In this document: positions 42,072 through 48,434 of the stretch, piece after piece
How positions within the stretch are numbered: the first letter of the stretch is position 1
How the letters are laid out: each line of letters opens with the position of its first letter
Assembly: GCA_030147525.1 (NCBI GenBank)
Contig: JASBVF010000030.1
Coordinates: 1 to 64,000 of the forward strand
Direction of reading: 5' to 3'
Source: Bacteroidota bacterium
GTDB lineage: Bacteria > Bacteroidota > Bacteroidia > Chitinophagales > Saprospiraceae
Length of the DNA: 64,000 nt
Made by a program: the position numbers and the translations under genes
The notes under the pieces: model-generated
What the model saw: only the letters and a program-made list of their open reading frames with translations
Databases searched by the model: none
Told to the model about the DNA's origin: nothing

Positions 42072-43139
42072 ATGACCAACAACCTCCTCGACGGCGTCCA
42101 TCTGGACGAGCTATCCATTTCAAAAGAAACCAGGGAGCTGAGTGAAGCTGTGCGGGATTCTGCGCTGTCTTTGGTCGATCGCATCGAATCATACGAAGAT
42201 ATCATCAGTATCGAAATCGGCGATACGACGCTCTCCCGTGCCCGTAACATCGAGCGGGACACGAGCCTGCGCCAACTTTACCTGAAATTTGAAGGAGGCA
42301 ACCCCACGGGAACGCAGAAAGACCGGATTGCATTTGCCCAGGTGCATGATGCACTGCGGCGTGGTTACGATACAATTACCGTAGCCACCTGTGGGAATTA
42401 CGGCGTGGCAGTGGCATTGGCTGCTCAATTGGCCGGCCTCCATTGCGTAATTTACATCCCGGAAACTTACCATACGCACCGGGTAAAGGAAATGGAACAA
42501 ACCGGAGCCGAGGTGCGCCGGGCTCCCGGTTCTTACGAGGATACCGTAACATTTTCCACCCTGCAAGCGGGCGAGAACGACTGGTACGACGCCAATCCCG
42601 GCGGCCAGAATACGCCCTTGCAAATTATTGCCTACGCTGAAATTGCGTATGAAATATATGACCAGTTGAGGGATGCGCCGAAGGTGGTGGCCGTTCCGGT
42701 CTCGAACGGCACCTTGCTGGCTGGCATCTACCGGGGTTTTGTCAGCCTTTACAAGCGTGGGCGCACATCAAGAATACCGAGGATGATCGCCGCTTCGTCC
42801 TCTCATAAAAATCCGATTATCACTTCTTTTAAAAAAGGCCTCGATTTTTGCGAAGACCTCCGCCCTGAAAAAATCAAAGAAACCAAAGTCAACGAACCGC
42901 TCATCAACTGGCACAGCTTCGATGGGGAGGAGGCGCTCTGGGCTATCCGGCAGTCCGGCGGCGATGCGTTTCACATCAGCGATCAGAAAATGGTGAAATA
43001 TGCACGCCTGCTGGGAGAAAAAGAGGGGCTGAAAGTGCTGCCGGCTTCTACGGCTGGCCTTGCTGCCCTCATCGAAATGCATCGCCAGGAGGAGTTTGAG
43101 CCTGACCGGTTCGTGGCTATTTTAACAGGGAAAGATTGA
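42072..43139 (+). CDS. PLP-dependent threonine/cysteine-synthase-like enzyme
   Basis: 355 residues, fold-type II. PLP Lys at 83 in GGNPTGTQKDRIA, Asn loop ATCGNYGVAVA, phosphate loop PVSNGTLLAG, C-terminal LPASTAGLAAL. The GTQKDR form resembles threonine synthase and related beta-replacement enzymes, but the zinc/N-terminal parts of threonine synthase are absent, so the substrate is open. First gene of the five-gene cluster ending at 47864. Confidence 0.85.
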   Translation: MTNNLLDGVHLDELSISKETRELSEAVRDSALSLVDRIESYEDIISIEIGDTTLSRARNIERDTSLRQLYLKFEGGNPTGTQKDRIAFAQVHDALRRGYDTITVATCGNYGVAVALAAQLAGLHCVIYIPETYHTHRVKEMEQTGAEVRRAPGSYEDTVTFSTLQAGENDWYDANPGGQNTPLQIIAYAEIAYEIYDQLRDAPKVVAVPVSNGTLLAGIYRGFVSLYKRGRTSRIPRMIAASSSHKNPIITSFKKGLDFCEDLRPEKIKETKVNEPLINWHSFDGEEALWAIRQSGGDAFHISDQKMVKYARLLGEKEGLKVLPASTAGLAALIEMHRQEEFEPDRFVAILTGKD

Positions 43140-43201
43140 TTGTTAGATTGCTGGATTGTTTGATTGCTATTTGTTCAACAATCCAACAATTTCAGCCATT
43201 T

Positions 43202-43231
43202 AGCCATCAAACAATCCAGCCATCAAACAAT
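43202..43231. repeat. Doubled 14-bp word in the DUF1611 leader
   Basis: AGCCATCAAACAAT occurs at 43202-43215 and 43218-43231. Partial inverted copies (ATTGTTTGATTGC) lie 45-60 bases upstream. It ends directly before the ATG. Confidence 0.85.
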
Positions 43232-43245
43232 AGAACAACCAAACA

Positions 43246-44322
43246 ATGAAAAAACCACTCGACGGAAACGCTATCGTCTATTGCCAGGGTGCCTTCAACA
43301 CCCCGAATGGAAAAACTGCTCACGGGCTCGTTCGCTTCACCGAACGCTACCGGGTGCTTTGTGTTATTGATGAAAAATACGCCGGGAAGGATGCCGGCGA
43401 AGTGTTGGACGGTAAAAAGAAAAACATTCCCATTTACGCTACGGTGGAGGAAGCACTCCTTGAAGTGGGCAAACAAACCCAAAACTTCGTCATTGGCATT
43501 GCTCCGGACGGCGGCAGGCTGGCTCCTCACGCTCGAAAAGACGTGAAAACTGCGCTGAAACACGGCCTGAACGTTGACAGCGGACTACATGATTTTCTCT
43601 CCAATGACCCCGATATCATTGCGCTGGCGCAAAACCACGGCTGCCGAATCCGGGACATACGCAAGACGCCGGGTCGTGAGGAGCTGCATTTCTTCTCCGG
43701 TAAAATCGAAGAGGTCGATTGTCTGAAACTGGCAGTCCTCGGTACGGACTCTGCCATCGGAAAGCGTACCACGGCCTGGATTATCGTGCATGGCTTTCGG
43801 GCTATCGGAAAAAAGGCTGAAATGATCGGCACCGGCCAAACTGCCTGGATGCAAGGCGCAAAATACAGCATGGTCATGGATTCACTGATCAACGATTTCG
43901 TCTCCGGAGAGATCGAGCATGCCGTTCACGAAGCCTGGAAAAATGAAAGTCCGGACGTCATTATCATCGAAGGGCAGGGCAGCCTGATGAACCCGGCTTA
44001 CCCCGGTGGCTTTGAAATTCTGGCCGCCGGCCGCCCTGATTACGTCATCCTTCAACATGCTCCGAGGCGGAAGGAATACGACGGGTTTCCCGGCTATCGG
44101 TTGCATTCGCTGCCAAAGCAAATTCAGGCGATTGAAGTTATTTCAGGAAAAAAAGTCATTGCCATCACGGTCAATCACGAAGACATGCAGCCTGATGAAA
44201 TTGAAGCAGAGTGCAGGAAAATTACCGCTGAAACCGGTCTGCCTGCGTTCGACGTGCTGGTGCAGGGAGCGGAGGGGCTGGTTGGGGTTTTAAAACCATT
44301 TCTCAAAAAAAGGAAAACGTGA
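43246..44322 (+). CDS. DUF1611 protein, DgcN-like (D-glutamate N-acetyltransferase family)
   Basis: 358 residues. An N-terminal Rossmann-like part (about 1-135; FVIGIAPDGGRLAPHARKD) and a C-terminal P-loop domain (GTDSAIGKRTTAW, about 168-180; VIIIEGQGSLMNPAYPG). Family knowledge: DUF1611 includes DgcN, which N-acetylates D-glutamate before its racemisation by an enolase-superfamily partner, DgcA. An epimerase of that superfamily is at 46800 here, so the pair is present. Specificity is inferred. Confidence 0.82.
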   Translation: MKKPLDGNAIVYCQGAFNTPNGKTAHGLVRFTERYRVLCVIDEKYAGKDAGEVLDGKKKNIPIYATVEEALLEVGKQTQNFVIGIAPDGGRLAPHARKDVKTALKHGLNVDSGLHDFLSNDPDIIALAQNHGCRIRDIRKTPGREELHFFSGKIEEVDCLKLAVLGTDSAIGKRTTAWIIVHGFRAIGKKAEMIGTGQTAWMQGAKYSMVMDSLINDFVSGEIEHAVHEAWKNESPDVIIIEGQGSLMNPAYPGGFEILAAGRPDYVILQHAPRRKEYDGFPGYRLHSLPKQIQAIEVISGKKVIAITVNHEDMQPDEIEAECRKITAETGLPAFDVLVQGAEGLVGVLKPFLKKRKT

Positions 44323-44384
44323 CGGTTGGTATTTTTAGTTAAAAAAATGATAGTCAGAACTTTTTGAATTTGAAAAAGCCAGAC

Positions 44385-45884
44385 ATGCAACCCGGTCTTC
44401 AGTCTTTATTGGTATTCCCTCAACTCAAAATCCACGATCTCATCGTCGAGCCAAAGCGGGTGAAAGCCACCTATCTGCTCACCAAACCCGACGGCAGCGA
44501 GGTGCAAAACGAGCTGATCTACTCCTACGACGAAAAAATCTTCGATCCGAAAAGCCCCGAAAGCATCAACCTTGCCTCCATGGCGGCGGCGCAGGTAGCC
44601 ATGAACTACGGCCTGTTTTGCAAAGAAATCATCTTCGATGGCCTGTACGACGAGGCCGACCGCCGCTTCATTCTCGACATGACGGAGAACACGTCACGGG
44701 AGATTTACGTCAACAAATTTTTGATGGAAAACGAGTTCCTGCTGCCGCCGTTCAACCAGATTTTACTCGAAAAAAAAGAGCGGTACACGGGCGCCGAGAT
44801 CAAGTTCGTCAACACAAAATTCCCCGGTTTTAAAACGGAAAAAATCTTCCCTGTAACGGAAAAAAATAAATTCGCCATCCTCAGTAGCGGCGGCAAGGAC
44901 AGCTTGCTGACTTACGGAATCGTGAAGGACATCGGCGGCGAGGCGCATCCGGTTTTCATCAATGAGTCGGGGCGGCACTGGTTCACAGCCATCAATTCGC
45001 ACCGCTATTTCGCTGAAAATGAGCCGAATACGGGACGGGTCTGGTGCAACAGCGACCGCATTTTCAACTGGATGCTGCGCCAGATGCCTTTCATCCGGCA
45101 GGACTACGCCAACGTGCGGGCCGATTATTACCCCATCCGGCTGTGGACGGTGGCGGTGTTCCTCTTCGGCGTGCTGCCGGTAGCCCGGCGTAAAAACATC
45201 GGCAACATTCTCATCGGCGACGAATACGACACGACGCTGCAGGAAAATTTCAACGGCATCACCCACTACGCCGGGCTGTACGACCAAAGCAAATATTTCG
45301 ACAACGCCCTCACGAGGTATTTTTTTAAAAAAGGCTGGAATACGCACCAGTACTCGATTCTGCGCAGTCTGGGCGAACTTTTGATCATGAAAATTCTGGT
45401 GAAACGCTACCCGGAATTACAGCGGCACCAGGTCAGTTGCCACGCCTCCCACGAGCATGAGGGCCGCATTTACCCCTGCGGCAAATGCGAAAAATGCCGC
45501 CGCATCGTCGGCATGCTCAAATCCCTCGATGAAGATCCCGGCCGCTGCGGCTACACACCTGAGCAAATTCAGCTTTGCCTCAAAGCCCTCGAAGGAAAAA
45601 AAGTAAAACAAATCGGCTCGGATGCTGCACATTTGTACCACCTTTTGCTTGAAAAAGGCCTGATTGAAAGAAACGCCCACACGGAAAAGCTGGCCCGGCC
45701 GCACCCGGAGATCATGAAATTACGTTTCGACAAGGAGCGCAGCAACCTGGCAGACCTGCCGCCGTATATCAGGGAGCCGGTTTTGAAAATTTACAACCAG
45801 TACGCCGACGGCGCTGTGGTGCGGGAGAACCGGAAGTGGAAAGAGGTGGATGTGTCAGAGCTCCCCGGTGATTATTTTAACTGA
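44385..45884 (+). CDS. PP-loop ATP-pyrophosphatase-type enzyme with Cys cluster (possibly MurL-like)
   Basis: 499 residues from ATG 44385; the frame reaches a TTG at 44364. N-terminal ~150 residues unassigned. PP-loop SGGKDS at 168-173, which binds ATP and releases pyrophosphate. Then HASHEHEGRIYPCGKCEKCRR (C-x2-C-x2-C, likely Zn) about 355-378, and a C-terminal helical tail. PP-loop enzymes activate carboxyl or carbonyl groups by adenylation. The best-fitting described family I can think of is MurL, which epimerises the terminal L-Glu of UDP-MurNAc-L-Ala-L-Glu. That fit is recollection plus context (neighbouring dipeptide epimerase), not a search result. Confidence 0.72.
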   Translation: MQPGLQSLLVFPQLKIHDLIVEPKRVKATYLLTKPDGSEVQNELIYSYDEKIFDPKSPESINLASMAAAQVAMNYGLFCKEIIFDGLYDEADRRFILDMTENTSREIYVNKFLMENEFLLPPFNQILLEKKERYTGAEIKFVNTKFPGFKTEKIFPVTEKNKFAILSSGGKDSLLTYGIVKDIGGEAHPVFINESGRHWFTAINSHRYFAENEPNTGRVWCNSDRIFNWMLRQMPFIRQDYANVRADYYPIRLWTVAVFLFGVLPVARRKNIGNILIGDEYDTTLQENFNGITHYAGLYDQSKYFDNALTRYFFKKGWNTHQYSILRSLGELLIMKILVKRYPELQRHQVSCHASHEHEGRIYPCGKCEKCRRIVGMLKSLDEDPGRCGYTPEQIQLCLKALEGKKVKQIGSDAAHLYHLLLEKGLIERNAHTEKLARPHPEIMKLRFDKERSNLADLPPYIREPVLKIYNQYADGAVVRENRKWKEVDVSELPGDYFN

Positions 45885-45894
45885 AAATCTTCTC

Positions 45895-45970
45895 CCGCAG
45901 ACCCCGCAGACTCCCGCAGAGATTTTTTTGAAGTCGAAATCTGCGAAAATCTGCGTGATCTGCTGGAGCA
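45895..45970. repeat. Imperfect inverted/tandem repeat in the creatininase leader
   Basis: Three CCCGCAGA-type words (CTCCCGCAGACCCCGCAGAC and one more) are followed by three complementary TCTGCG/TCTGCT words in the second half. It could fold into a long imperfect hairpin between two genes of the cluster. Confidence 0.7.
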
Positions 45971-45986
45971 AAACGAACTGCGACCC

Positions 45987-46778
45987 ATGTCAAAAAAAGA
46001 AATCTTCCACTGGGAGAAGCTCACCTGGCCCGAGATCGAGGAGCGCCTGAAATACGTCGATACAGCCATTCTGCCCTGCGGTGCCATCGAGCAACACGGC
46101 CCGCATCTTCCCGTCGATATCGACTATTTCGATGCCGTGTACCTCGCCAACCGTGTAGCCGAAGCTTGCAGCGACCCAAAGCCGTTCGTGCTGCCGCCCA
46201 TCCCGTTCGGGGTGTCCTACCACCACGAAGATTTCAAAGGAACGCTGAGCGTCACCAACGACGGGCTGTCCCGCTTCGTGTATGACATCGGCATGAGCCT
46301 TGCGCAAAATGGAATCAAAAAACTCATCATCCTCAACGGCCACGGCGACAATGCGCCGACCCTCAGCTACGCCGCCCAGATGATCAACCGGGACGCCCAT
46401 ATTTTCGTCTGCGTGGAAACGGGCGAGACCAGTGATACCGACATCTACAACCTCATTGGCACCCACAACGACATTCACGCCGGGGAGATCGAAACGAGTA
46501 CCACGCTGGCCATTCGCCCGGAAGTGGTGCAGATGGACAAGGCCGTGAAGGAAACCCTGAAATTTGAAAGCGACTACCTCGACTACACATCCGACCGGGG
46601 CGTGAGCTGGTACGTTCGAACCAGGAAAATTTCAGAATCGGGCGTGATGGGCGACGCCACGGCCGCCACAGCCGAAAAAGGCAAACAGATGTGGGACCTC
46701 ATGGTGGACCACCTCGTTCGTTTCATCGAAGTCATTAAGCGCAGTAAGCTGGACGAATTGCACCAACAGCGGTATTAA
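45987..46778 (+). CDS. Creatininase-family metal amidohydrolase
   Basis: 263 residues, cytoplasmic. Metal/active-site motifs are complete: GAIEQHGPHLPVDID, NGHGDN, and DIHAGEIETS. The family (creatininase, MftE, FAPy hydrolase) opens or cleaves C-N amide bonds, often in small peptides or lactams. Here it lies 21 bases before the dipeptide epimerase, so a cyclic or N-acylated Glu derivative is a reasonable substrate guess. Confidence 0.88.
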   Translation: MSKKEIFHWEKLTWPEIEERLKYVDTAILPCGAIEQHGPHLPVDIDYFDAVYLANRVAEACSDPKPFVLPPIPFGVSYHHEDFKGTLSVTNDGLSRFVYDIGMSLAQNGIKKLIILNGHGDNAPTLSYAAQMINRDAHIFVCVETGETSDTDIYNLIGTHNDIHAGEIETSTTLAIRPEVVQMDKAVKETLKFESDYLDYTSDRGVSWYVRTRKISESGVMGDATAATAEKGKQMWDLMVDHLVRFIEVIKRSKLDELHQQRY

Positions 46779-46799
46779 ATTTCGATTCAATCATTTTTC

Positions 46800-47864
46800 A
46801 TGAAAATAACCCGCCTTGAATGCTGGCCTGTCGAAATGCCGCTCACTGAGCCGTACACCATTGCCTACGAGACGATCGACCGTTGCGTAAACGTGATTTT
46901 AAAAATCAATACGGATTCCGGCCTCGTCGGTTGGGGCTGTGCTGCACCCGATTTGCCGGTAACGGGCGAAACGCCAAAGGGTGTGCTGAACGATTTTAAA
47001 AATACCATCGAACCCTGGCTGAAGGGTATGAATCCGTTTCGTTACGCCTTGATTGACAGGGAGATGCAGCAGTTTTTACCCAAAAGTCCATCGGCACGAA
47101 CCATGGCTGACATGGCGATTTACGACCTCATGGCCAAGCAGGCGCAGGTGCCGCTGTATCAGTTTCTCGGCGGCTACCGGGAACGCATTCCGACCAGCAT
47201 TACCATCGGAATTCTGCCCGTGGAAGAGACGCTGGCGAAGGCCCGTGATTTTATCAAAAAAGGTTTTTTTATCCTGAAAGTTAAAGGCGGCAAGGACGTG
47301 GAGGAGGACATCGAGAAAATGATAAAACTCAGGGAAACGCTCGGCCATGCCATCGAACTTCGCTTCGATGCCAACCAGGGCTACACCGTCGAGCAGTCCG
47401 TCCGTTTTATCAAAGAAACCATGGACGTGGGGATTGAACTTTTCGAACAGCCGACCAACAGCTCGGCTTCCGAGCTGCTTGGCGAGGTGACTTCTAAGGT
47501 TCCGGTACCCGTCATGGCCGACGAAAGCCTGCTGAGCCTGAAGGATGTTTTTCACCTGACCAGCAATAACTGGACGGACATGATCAACATCAAACTGATG
47601 AAAACCGGCGGCATCACTGAAGCTATGCACATCAACTCCGTGGCAAAAGCGGCAGGTGTGGAGGCGATGGTGGGCTGCATGGACGAGTCGGCGCTGAGTA
47701 TTTCCGCCGGGTTGCATTTTGCGCTCAGTCGCCCGAATATCCACTACGCCGACCTCGATGGCCACCTTGATTTGCTGGATGATCCGTTTGCCGGCACCGT
47801 GATTCTGAAAGACGGAGTACTTTGGCCGAATGAGGGAAATGGGTTGGGTTTTGATGAAAAATGA
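46800..47864 (+). CDS. Enolase-superfamily dipeptide epimerase (L-Ala-D/L-Glu or N-acetyl-Glu type)
   Basis: 354 residues. Capping domain then a TIM barrel with the muconate-lactonising subgroup residues: K-x-K (FILKVKGG), Asp in RFDANQG, Glu in ELFEQP, Asp in VMADES, and the opposing base Lys in IKLMKTGG. A DxD in YADLDGHLDL matches dipeptide epimerases. The same fold includes DgcA, the N-acetyl-glutamate racemase partner of DUF1611. Last gene of the cluster; lspA follows 75 bases on. Confidence 0.9.
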   Translation: MKITRLECWPVEMPLTEPYTIAYETIDRCVNVILKINTDSGLVGWGCAAPDLPVTGETPKGVLNDFKNTIEPWLKGMNPFRYALIDREMQQFLPKSPSARTMADMAIYDLMAKQAQVPLYQFLGGYRERIPTSITIGILPVEETLAKARDFIKKGFFILKVKGGKDVEEDIEKMIKLRETLGHAIELRFDANQGYTVEQSVRFIKETMDVGIELFEQPTNSSASELLGEVTSKVPVPVMADESLLSLKDVFHLTSNNWTDMINIKLMKTGGITEAMHINSVAKAAGVEAMVGCMDESALSISAGLHFALSRPNIHYADLDGHLDLLDDPFAGTVILKDGVLWPNEGNGLGFDEK

Positions 47865-47939: not shown

Positions 47940-48434
47940 ATGAAATTCAATTCAGCTTTTCGTACTCTTCTCATTTTACTGATCGTTTTTGCCAATGCCG
48001 GTTGCGATCAATTTTCGAAAGCCGTCGTCCGGGATAACGTGCAGGATTACGAGCAAATCGAATTGCTCAACGACAATTTCATACTCACCAAAGTTGAGAA
48101 CCGGGGCGCATTTTTTGGGTTGGGTGAAAACCTTCCACCTCTTATCAAAAACATCACGTTATCCCTTATCCCTATCATTGCCATGCTGGCAATCCTGATG
48201 TTTACATTGGCCGGGAGGGGGCTATCAGGAACAACGGTTTTTGGTCTTGCCTGCATGGTTGGCGGCGGTATCGGCAATATTTTCGACCGGGTCGTGCACG
48301 GCTCGGTGACGGATTTTCTACACATCAATCTGGGTGGTATTTTTAAAACCGGCATCTTCAACCTGGCCGATGTTTCGATTATGTTCGGCCTGATTGTGAT
48401 TATTTTCGGAGCGTTGAGGCAGCCGGGTGATTGA
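47940..48434 (+). CDS. lspA: Signal peptidase II (lipoprotein signal peptidase)
   Basis: 164 residues, four membrane helices. Cleaves the prolipoprotein signal peptide before the lipidated Cys. Conserved blocks are present: CDQFSK, VENRGAFFG, GGGIGNIFDRVVHGSVTDF with catalytic Asp116, and FNLADVSI with catalytic Asp144. Housekeeping gene; the cluster upstream makes this an operon end. Confidence 0.95.
   Translation: MKFNSAFRTLLILLIVFANAGCDQFSKAVVRDNVQDYEQIELLNDNFILTKVENRGAFFGLGENLPPLIKNITLSLIPIIAMLAILMFTLAGRGLSGTTVFGLACMVGGGIGNIFDRVVHGSVTDFLHINLGGIFKTGIFNLADVSIMFGLIVIIFGALRQPGD

Follow-up and report, generated by a model that had tools for sequence, protein, structure and literature searches.

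Which pathway, if any, is encoded by five enzyme genes that stand head to tail at positions 42072–47864 of a 64,000-nucleotide stretch of DNA (the window) from a Bacteroidota bacterium of the Saprospiraceae (assembly GCA_030147525.1, contig JASBVF010000030.1)? All five open reading frames (ORFs) are intact and lie on the + strand, in agreement with an initial annotation that had described a co-directional cluster from the letters alone. In order, they encode a pyridoxal phosphate (PLP) enzyme of the PALP fold (gene 1), a DUF1611 protein (gene 2), a PP-loop ATP enzyme (gene 3), a metal amidohydrolase of the creatininase family (gene 4) and an enolase-superfamily enzyme of the dipeptide-epimerase kind (gene 5). 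We found this set to be conserved in order and modular, and we read it, with a probability of roughly 0.45, as one pathway whose product would be a small metabolite with an amide link and a residue of inverted configuration, probably a basic one.

The five genes recur in the same order

GTDB contigs were scanned with gene 3 as the seed, yielding 107 confirmed relatives, and the 80 best of these entered the sample; ten and a further two loci from earlier searches brought it to 92 loci, or to 90 once two duplicates had been dropped. As the scan was based on two short peptide patterns, it undercounts relatives and is biased to close ones. Counting a locus as complete when all five genes lay on one strand, in the same order and less than 600 bases apart, we found the identical five-gene order in 62 of the 90 distinct loci. 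Because of this recurrence the clustering is not chance, and the co-occurrence in other genomes for which the initial annotation had suggested searching is thus found. By tblastn over the 92 loci, DUF1611 was detected in 85, creatininase in 85, PALP in 81 and the epimerase in 74, distant copies within a locus being counted, and gene 3 by construction in 92 of 92. Among the 28 incomplete loci, 18 have a contig end no more than 1,100 bases away, which for 14 of these is on the side of all the missing genes and for L006, L007, L061 and L113 does not explain every missing gene; the ten loci incomplete away from contig ends are L035, L040, L059, L072, L084, L089, L099, L100, L104 and L106.

The gene 3 tree (91 rows) carries 14 phylum labels taken from submitters' titles, with 23 rows unlabelled and some labels doubtful, such as that of Myxococcota on bins titled Deltaproteobacteria, and a complete five-gene locus occurs under 12 of the 14. 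Inheritance of the five genes as one set is supported: tree distances for the ten gene pairs over 58 complete loci correlated at 0.64–0.89, versus a highest correlation of 0.30 in a permutation control with 500 permutations per pair. Within the window's phylum, gene 3 gave a strong match in 11 of 395 genomes, the window's own included and six further matches (E 3.6e-4 to 9.4e-4) excluded, and among near relatives it was present in 3 of 60 genomes, one of them the window's own.

Genes 3 and 4 are fused in most relatives

Gene 3 (44364–45884, + strand; its start is uncertain, with a TTG at 44364 assigned) and gene 4 (45987–46778, + strand) are separate in the window. Both stand in a single ORF, with gene 4 as the C-terminal half, in 63 of the 82 loci where both could be placed (62 of 81 distinct ones, L034 and L092 being one contig), and this fused ORF encodes 768–836 residues where it is not cut by a contig end. 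Sixteen loci from the Bacteroidota part of the tree have the split form, as do L065, L090 and L103, and the window, split as well, is placed in a group of 17 split rows. Since the nearest rows outside these 17, L047 and L041, are both fused (in a tree rooted only at its midpoint), fission of a fused gene is the simplest reading of the window's split form. The spacer that is the site of fusion in most relatives (45885–45986, no strand assigned) holds a long inverted repeat forming a strong predicted hairpin of −34.4 kcal/mol. For the fused protein of L041, comparison of a structural model (mean pLDDT 85.8, pTM 0.67) with the PDB gave creatininase as the best match, with QatC and QueC next in line and matching the other half. 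A candidate fusion of the PALP gene in another genome (G815) was rejected, as its 836-residue frame looks like merely a long open frame.

A three-enzyme core and a two-part add-on

The set is modular, comprising a three-enzyme core (genes 1, 2 and 5) and a two-part ATP-using add-on (genes 3 and 4). PRK06381, the NCBIfam model of gene 1, exceeded its cut-off in 20 of the 395 genomes of the window's phylum, the window's own included, and among them were all 11 with gene 3. All nine Bacteroidota genomes that have gene 1 and lack gene 3 keep genes 1, 2 and 5 together, with gene 1 reversed in orientation in two of them, and neither gene 3 nor gene 4 was seen beside the core in the 16–17 kb read from each of the nine. 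In the phylum of Desulfosarcina alkanivorans, gene 1 was present in 8 of 395 genomes; of the seven other gene 1 loci of that phylum, five carry the whole set (L174 being the same contig as L071, and gene 3 of L176 being interrupted by masked bases) and the remaining two run into a contig end once gene 2 has begun. Genes 4 and 5 stand together at another site in two genomes (G033 and G480), and one genome (G014) has the epimerase elsewhere and gave no gene 4 match.

Gene 3 as a remote relative of MurL

Gene 3 carries an SGGKDS motif and a C-x12-C-x2-C-x2-C cluster, and its SGGK and all four cysteines are kept in 92 of 92 relatives. No Pfam family exceeded its cut-off, and a sequence search of the PDB returned no match at E ≤ 1. 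The AlphaFold model of the window's protein (mean pLDDT 93.1) resembles QueC-type folds over approximately residues 167–390 with Z scores of 13.4–14.7 (QatC 14.7, Cap9 14.4, QueC 13.7), other PP-loop enzymes following from Z 11.2 downward. The MurL model NF041275 matched 58 of 62 gene 3 family members at E ≤ 0.01 (best 4.7e-9), the window's protein scoring 15 bits versus a curated cut-off of 700, which it does not reach. No other NCBIfam model, of tRNA-type or any other, reached E ≤ 0.01 among these 62 members, and in a control search E. coli QueC gave 20 NCBIfam matches up to E 10, MurL not among them. Pfam QueC (PF06508, cut-off 22) did not match the window's protein; it appeared at E ≤ 1 in 37 of 62 relatives (best E 0.005) and was absent or below cut-off in the four members checked singly.

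By sequence, gene 3 is distantly related to MurL, and its predicted fold is of the QueC type. The comparison with the MurL hidden Markov model supports, as a distant kinship, the resemblance that the initial annotation had suspected, and the match to a tRNA-type family that it had considered as a counter-indication was not observed. According to excerpts of the respective papers, MurL uses ATP and releases AMP in a one-way reaction for which an adenylate is proposed (PMC8788868), and QueC and Cap9 activate a carboxylate and then join it to an amine (PMC13279940). As a remote MurL relative gene 3 should use ATP, but it departs from the MurD2–MurL route by the low score of the window's protein, by the creatininase fusion and by its place among five genes without a Mur ligase. 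With QueC, Cap9 and QatC it shares the fold, the PP-loop and the cysteine site, whereas the spacing after its first cysteine is x12 instead of the x8 given in the excerpt of a QueC family review (PMC13329287), the window's protein has no Pfam QueC match and the five genes include none for deazapurines. The words creatininase and MurL are absent from that review. As a separate observation, a gene 3 model match with one internal TAA stop was reported in L012 (G361 contig 9).

Gene 4 passes the Pfam creatininase cut-off (238.8 bits) and keeps the creatininase metal-site residues, but misses the cut-offs of the equivalog models for creatininase (TIGR04448, 111.9 of 235) and for the MftE peptidyl-dipeptidase (TIGR03964, 144 of 172), the latter being the best-scoring. 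It further differs from both by its fusion to an ATP enzyme and by lacking Glu122 of creatininase, at which position 81 gene 4 relatives have Gly (51) or Asp (30).

The pocket of gene 5 points to a basic residue

Gene 5 (46800–47864, + strand) belongs to the MR_MLE group of the enolase superfamily. Its catalytic and metal residues K160, K162 and D190 are present in 69 of 69 sequences, and E216, D241, K265 and K268 in at least 97%. For the L-Ala-D/L-Glu epimerase YkfB, an excerpt of PMC5808125 gives K162 and K268 as the catalytic lysines. K265 of gene 5 aligns with the second of these, and both the catalytic lysines and the metal acids of an L-Ala-D/L-Glu epimerase are found in gene 5. A DxD motif (D318-x-D320), which presumably binds the dipeptide amine, is kept in 69 of 69. 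The metal motifs of the amidohydrolase and the acid/base residues and DxD of the epimerase, noted initially in the window, are accordingly not only present but conserved across relatives.

The substrate pocket departs from this glutamate-type template. E24 (68 of 69), D51 (67 of 68), D295 (68 of 69) and H322 (67 of 69) are highly conserved, and alignment to the Bacillus Ala-Glu epimerase 1jpm sets E24 against Arg24, D51 against Thr and D295 against Ile; we take Arg24 of 1jpm to bind the Glu side chain. E. coli YcjG has a gap at position 51, with Gly and Leu at positions 24 and 295, respectively. The closest resemblance is to 3rit, which we assume to be the cationic-dipeptide epimerase of Methylococcus capsulatus: it has E51 and D296 at the places of D51 and D295 and shares GCMDES and DLDG with gene 5, but has Arg and Ser where gene 5 has Glu24 and His322. 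Based on Glu24 and the two conserved acids at positions that are acidic in 3rit, the residue epimerised by gene 5 is probably basic rather than acidic. The four pocket residues are kept in six copies from three-gene sets and in three copies elsewhere, except for Q24 in L168, and three further epimerases deviate from the set.

Separate DUF1611–epimerase pairs were noticed at two other loci (L159:4742-6905 and L162:4469-6627), with the pockets K24/E51/D295 and T24/S51/S295, respectively. Since these pocket residues differ, such pairs may represent a general module whose substrates vary.

Genes 1 and 2

Gene 1 (42072–43139, + strand) scores 206.9 bits to PALP and passes PRK06381 with 446.9 versus a cut-off of 266. 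Its K83 aligns with the PLP lysine of the fold, and Q184 (82 of 82), Q82 (80 of 82) and C107 (81 of 81) are conserved. Asn154, Ser155 and Arg160 of 1uim, which we take to be the substrate-phosphate residues of threonine synthase, align with G178, Q179 (variable among relatives) and Q184 of the window's protein and are not kept. As the gene adjoins DUF1611 in all 16 genomes examined for carrying PRK06381, the name of that model, threonine synthase, is probably wrong for this family. Threonine synthesis by gene 1 was rejected as a role, given a canonical thrC elsewhere in the genome (291.3 bits, over its cut-off).

Gene 2 (43246–44322, + strand) contains both the N- and the C-terminal DUF1611 domain and is related to DgcN and to the PDB entries 2g0t, 2obn and 7xrj, keeping the P-loop GTDSAxGKRT and the EGQGSL motif in common with 7xrj. 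The open-licence papers found on DUF1611 concern Dickeya, judging by their titles and the opening lines of their abstracts.

A possible pathway to an amide-linked metabolite

From these families and residues we infer the individual reactions, their order and the product. Gene 1 would supply an unusual amino acid by replacement chemistry, and gene 2 would acylate or aminoacylate an amine, in the way that DgcN acts on D-Glu. Gene 5 would then invert the alpha carbon of the N-acylated residue, which, judging from the pocket, may bear an amine or guanidine. The MurL/QueC-type domain of gene 3 would adenylate a carboxylate with ATP, either driving the inversion one way, as in MurL, or coupling an amine, as in QueC and Cap9, and gene 4 would cut or close an amide as the last step. 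The product would be a dipeptide-like or N-acyl amide-linked small metabolite.

Somewhat short of even odds, we further consider that this is a pathway without a name so far, either old or passed on by gene transfer among environmental bacteria of a dozen phylum labels, and that it makes a new small metabolite with a D-residue independently of ribosomes and carrier proteins. Its central element would be a new bifunctional enzyme that unites a MurL-like adenylating epimerase or ligase with a creatininase-type amidohydrolase. Searches of the open-licence literature found no description of the operon or of the fused enzyme, and nothing on DUF1611 or creatininase with a dipeptide epimerase, on an operon of creatininase, threonine synthase and epimerase, or on a dipeptide epimerase of Methylococcus capsulatus; the enzyme families are known, but their combination and the fused enzyme seem undescribed. 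Five enzymes whose gene order is conserved over so many lineages must have a worthwhile product or substrate, and the proposed pathway would correct the gene names threonine synthase, creatininase and Ala-Glu epimerase and would give new substrates to DUF1611 and MurL-type enzymes. It is directly testable by a metabolite search in carriers such as Robiginitalea, Draconibacterium and Desulfosarcina.

Several points weigh against such a pathway. Reduced sets exist, with genes 1, 3 and 4 lacking 2 and 5 in L040, L059 and L089, and genes 1, 2 and 3 lacking an adjoining gene 4 in L006, L007, L099 and L106; therefore the five genes are not strictly inseparable. Two of the first three genomes have DUF1611 and a 40–42% identical epimerase elsewhere, adjacent in one, while in that of L089 nothing matched DUF1611 and the epimerase-fold matches did not exceed 31%. 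The nine three-gene genomes span only four genera, five coming from one genus. In the pocket of gene 5, Glu24 is without a solved counterpart among the five aligned chains, 3rit itself keeping Arg24, and the suggestion of a basic residue draws on position matches to 3rit, whose organism and substrate are assumed. Finally, an enzyme that joins ATP-dependent activation to amide cleavage could also serve in salvage or proofreading.

Alternative readings of the set

This last point leads to the main rival, the salvage of D-residue peptides or N-acyl-D-amino acids, in which genes 2 and 5 would convert the D- to the L-form, gene 4 would cut the amide and gene 1 would act as a lyase. Consistent with it are the best score of gene 4, which is to the MftE peptidyl-dipeptidase, the occurrence of the three-gene core without the ATP enzyme, and the description of DgcN–DgcA as a route of D-Glu utilisation in an excerpt of PMC10845958. 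An ATP-adenylating partner on a hydrolase would, however, be costly for breakdown, and no peptidase ranks within the 25 Pfam families seen most often in the 128 genes immediately flanking the set. Taken together, we regard salvage as unlikely, though it deserves more weight than any other competitor of the proposed pathway.

Less likely still, and in our view improbable, is that genes 2 and 5 are DgcN–DgcA and gene 3 is a MurL, feeding or recycling D-Glu of the cell wall. The pairing of DUF1611 with an enolase-superfamily epimerase, recognised by the initial annotation, stands, and it is common to the DgcN–DgcA route; the remote MurL kinship of gene 3 would also fit. In addition, a search of the window's genome (G000, 98% complete) for the glutamate racemase family found nothing at E ≤ 0.001. 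D-glutamate as the substrate is not supported: gene 2 scores 154.1 bits to the DgcN model NF041892 (cut-off 480) and gene 5 163.5 bits to the DgcA model NF042940 (cut-off 400), both, like gene 3 with MurL, far under the cut-off, and the pocket has Glu for the Glu-binding Arg24 and adds D51 and D295; the set also has three enzymes more than the DgcN–DgcA pair. Three of nine other genomes tested in the same genus are likewise without a racemase match, and these three lack gene 3 too. Over 80 genomes, a racemase above cut-off was present in 35 of 44 gene 3 carriers versus 28 of 36 non-carriers (of which one, G019, has the three-gene form). Lack of glutamate racemase and possession of the operon do not go hand in hand, and D-Glu supply for the wall was rejected on this ground.

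A deazaguanine-type conjugation, with gene 3 working on a deazapurine like QueC, Cap9 or QatC, would account for these three being the best folds and for the joining of an activated carboxylate to an amine by QueC and Cap9 (excerpt of PMC13279940). It is highly improbable in view of the Pfam QueC results for the four members checked singly, of queuosine families missing from the 25 commonest of the 128 flanking genes, and of the remaining enzymes, which are of amino-acid and dipeptide types. That the locus is a loose housekeeping neighbourhood of unrelated genes with gene 1 as an ordinary threonine synthase, as the NCBIfam name and the spacers of about 100 bases behind genes 1 and 3 might suggest, can hardly be maintained against an order conserved under 12 phylum labels, the gene 3–4 fusion and the canonical thrC elsewhere.

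Spacers and neighbouring genes

Like the spacer between genes 3 and 4, that between genes 1 and 2 (43140–43245, no strand assigned) holds a long inverted repeat, with a predicted fold of −35.0 kcal/mol. At the Rfam gathering threshold, the window and 6 of 80 loci gave no riboswitch or other match. Downstream of gene 5, a gene for signal peptidase II (47940–48434) was left out of the set. When the ORFs of the 92 loci were clustered, no additional family extended beyond 12 loci. The one present in 12 is a sigma-54 response regulator standing two to seven genes off, and YitT membrane proteins form a family of seven loci, in six of which they adjoin the set.

We compared 128 of the 130 immediate flanking genes (78 loci; one gene was excluded because of its length and another was overlooked) with a distant set, made up of 130 of the 232 genes that stand at least five genes off. 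Some ion-transport neighbours had prompted an osmolyte role, which was rejected, mechanosensitive channels making up 3 of 128 flanking versus 2 of 130 distant genes. One family stands out, that of the DUF2179 membrane proteins (carrying either a YitT or a DUF5698 domain), which account for 8 of the 128 flanking genes and do not rank within the 25 most frequent families of the distant genes; MFS transporters account for 4; the gene calls in the flanks are crude, and the YitT cases are mostly in deltaproteobacterial bins. Examples of DUF2179 proteins beside the operon are L080:13687-14580, L055:13538-14392, L057:6538-7140, L061:4633-5223 and L102:6943-7602, and these and the MFS neighbours could be exporters or sensors.

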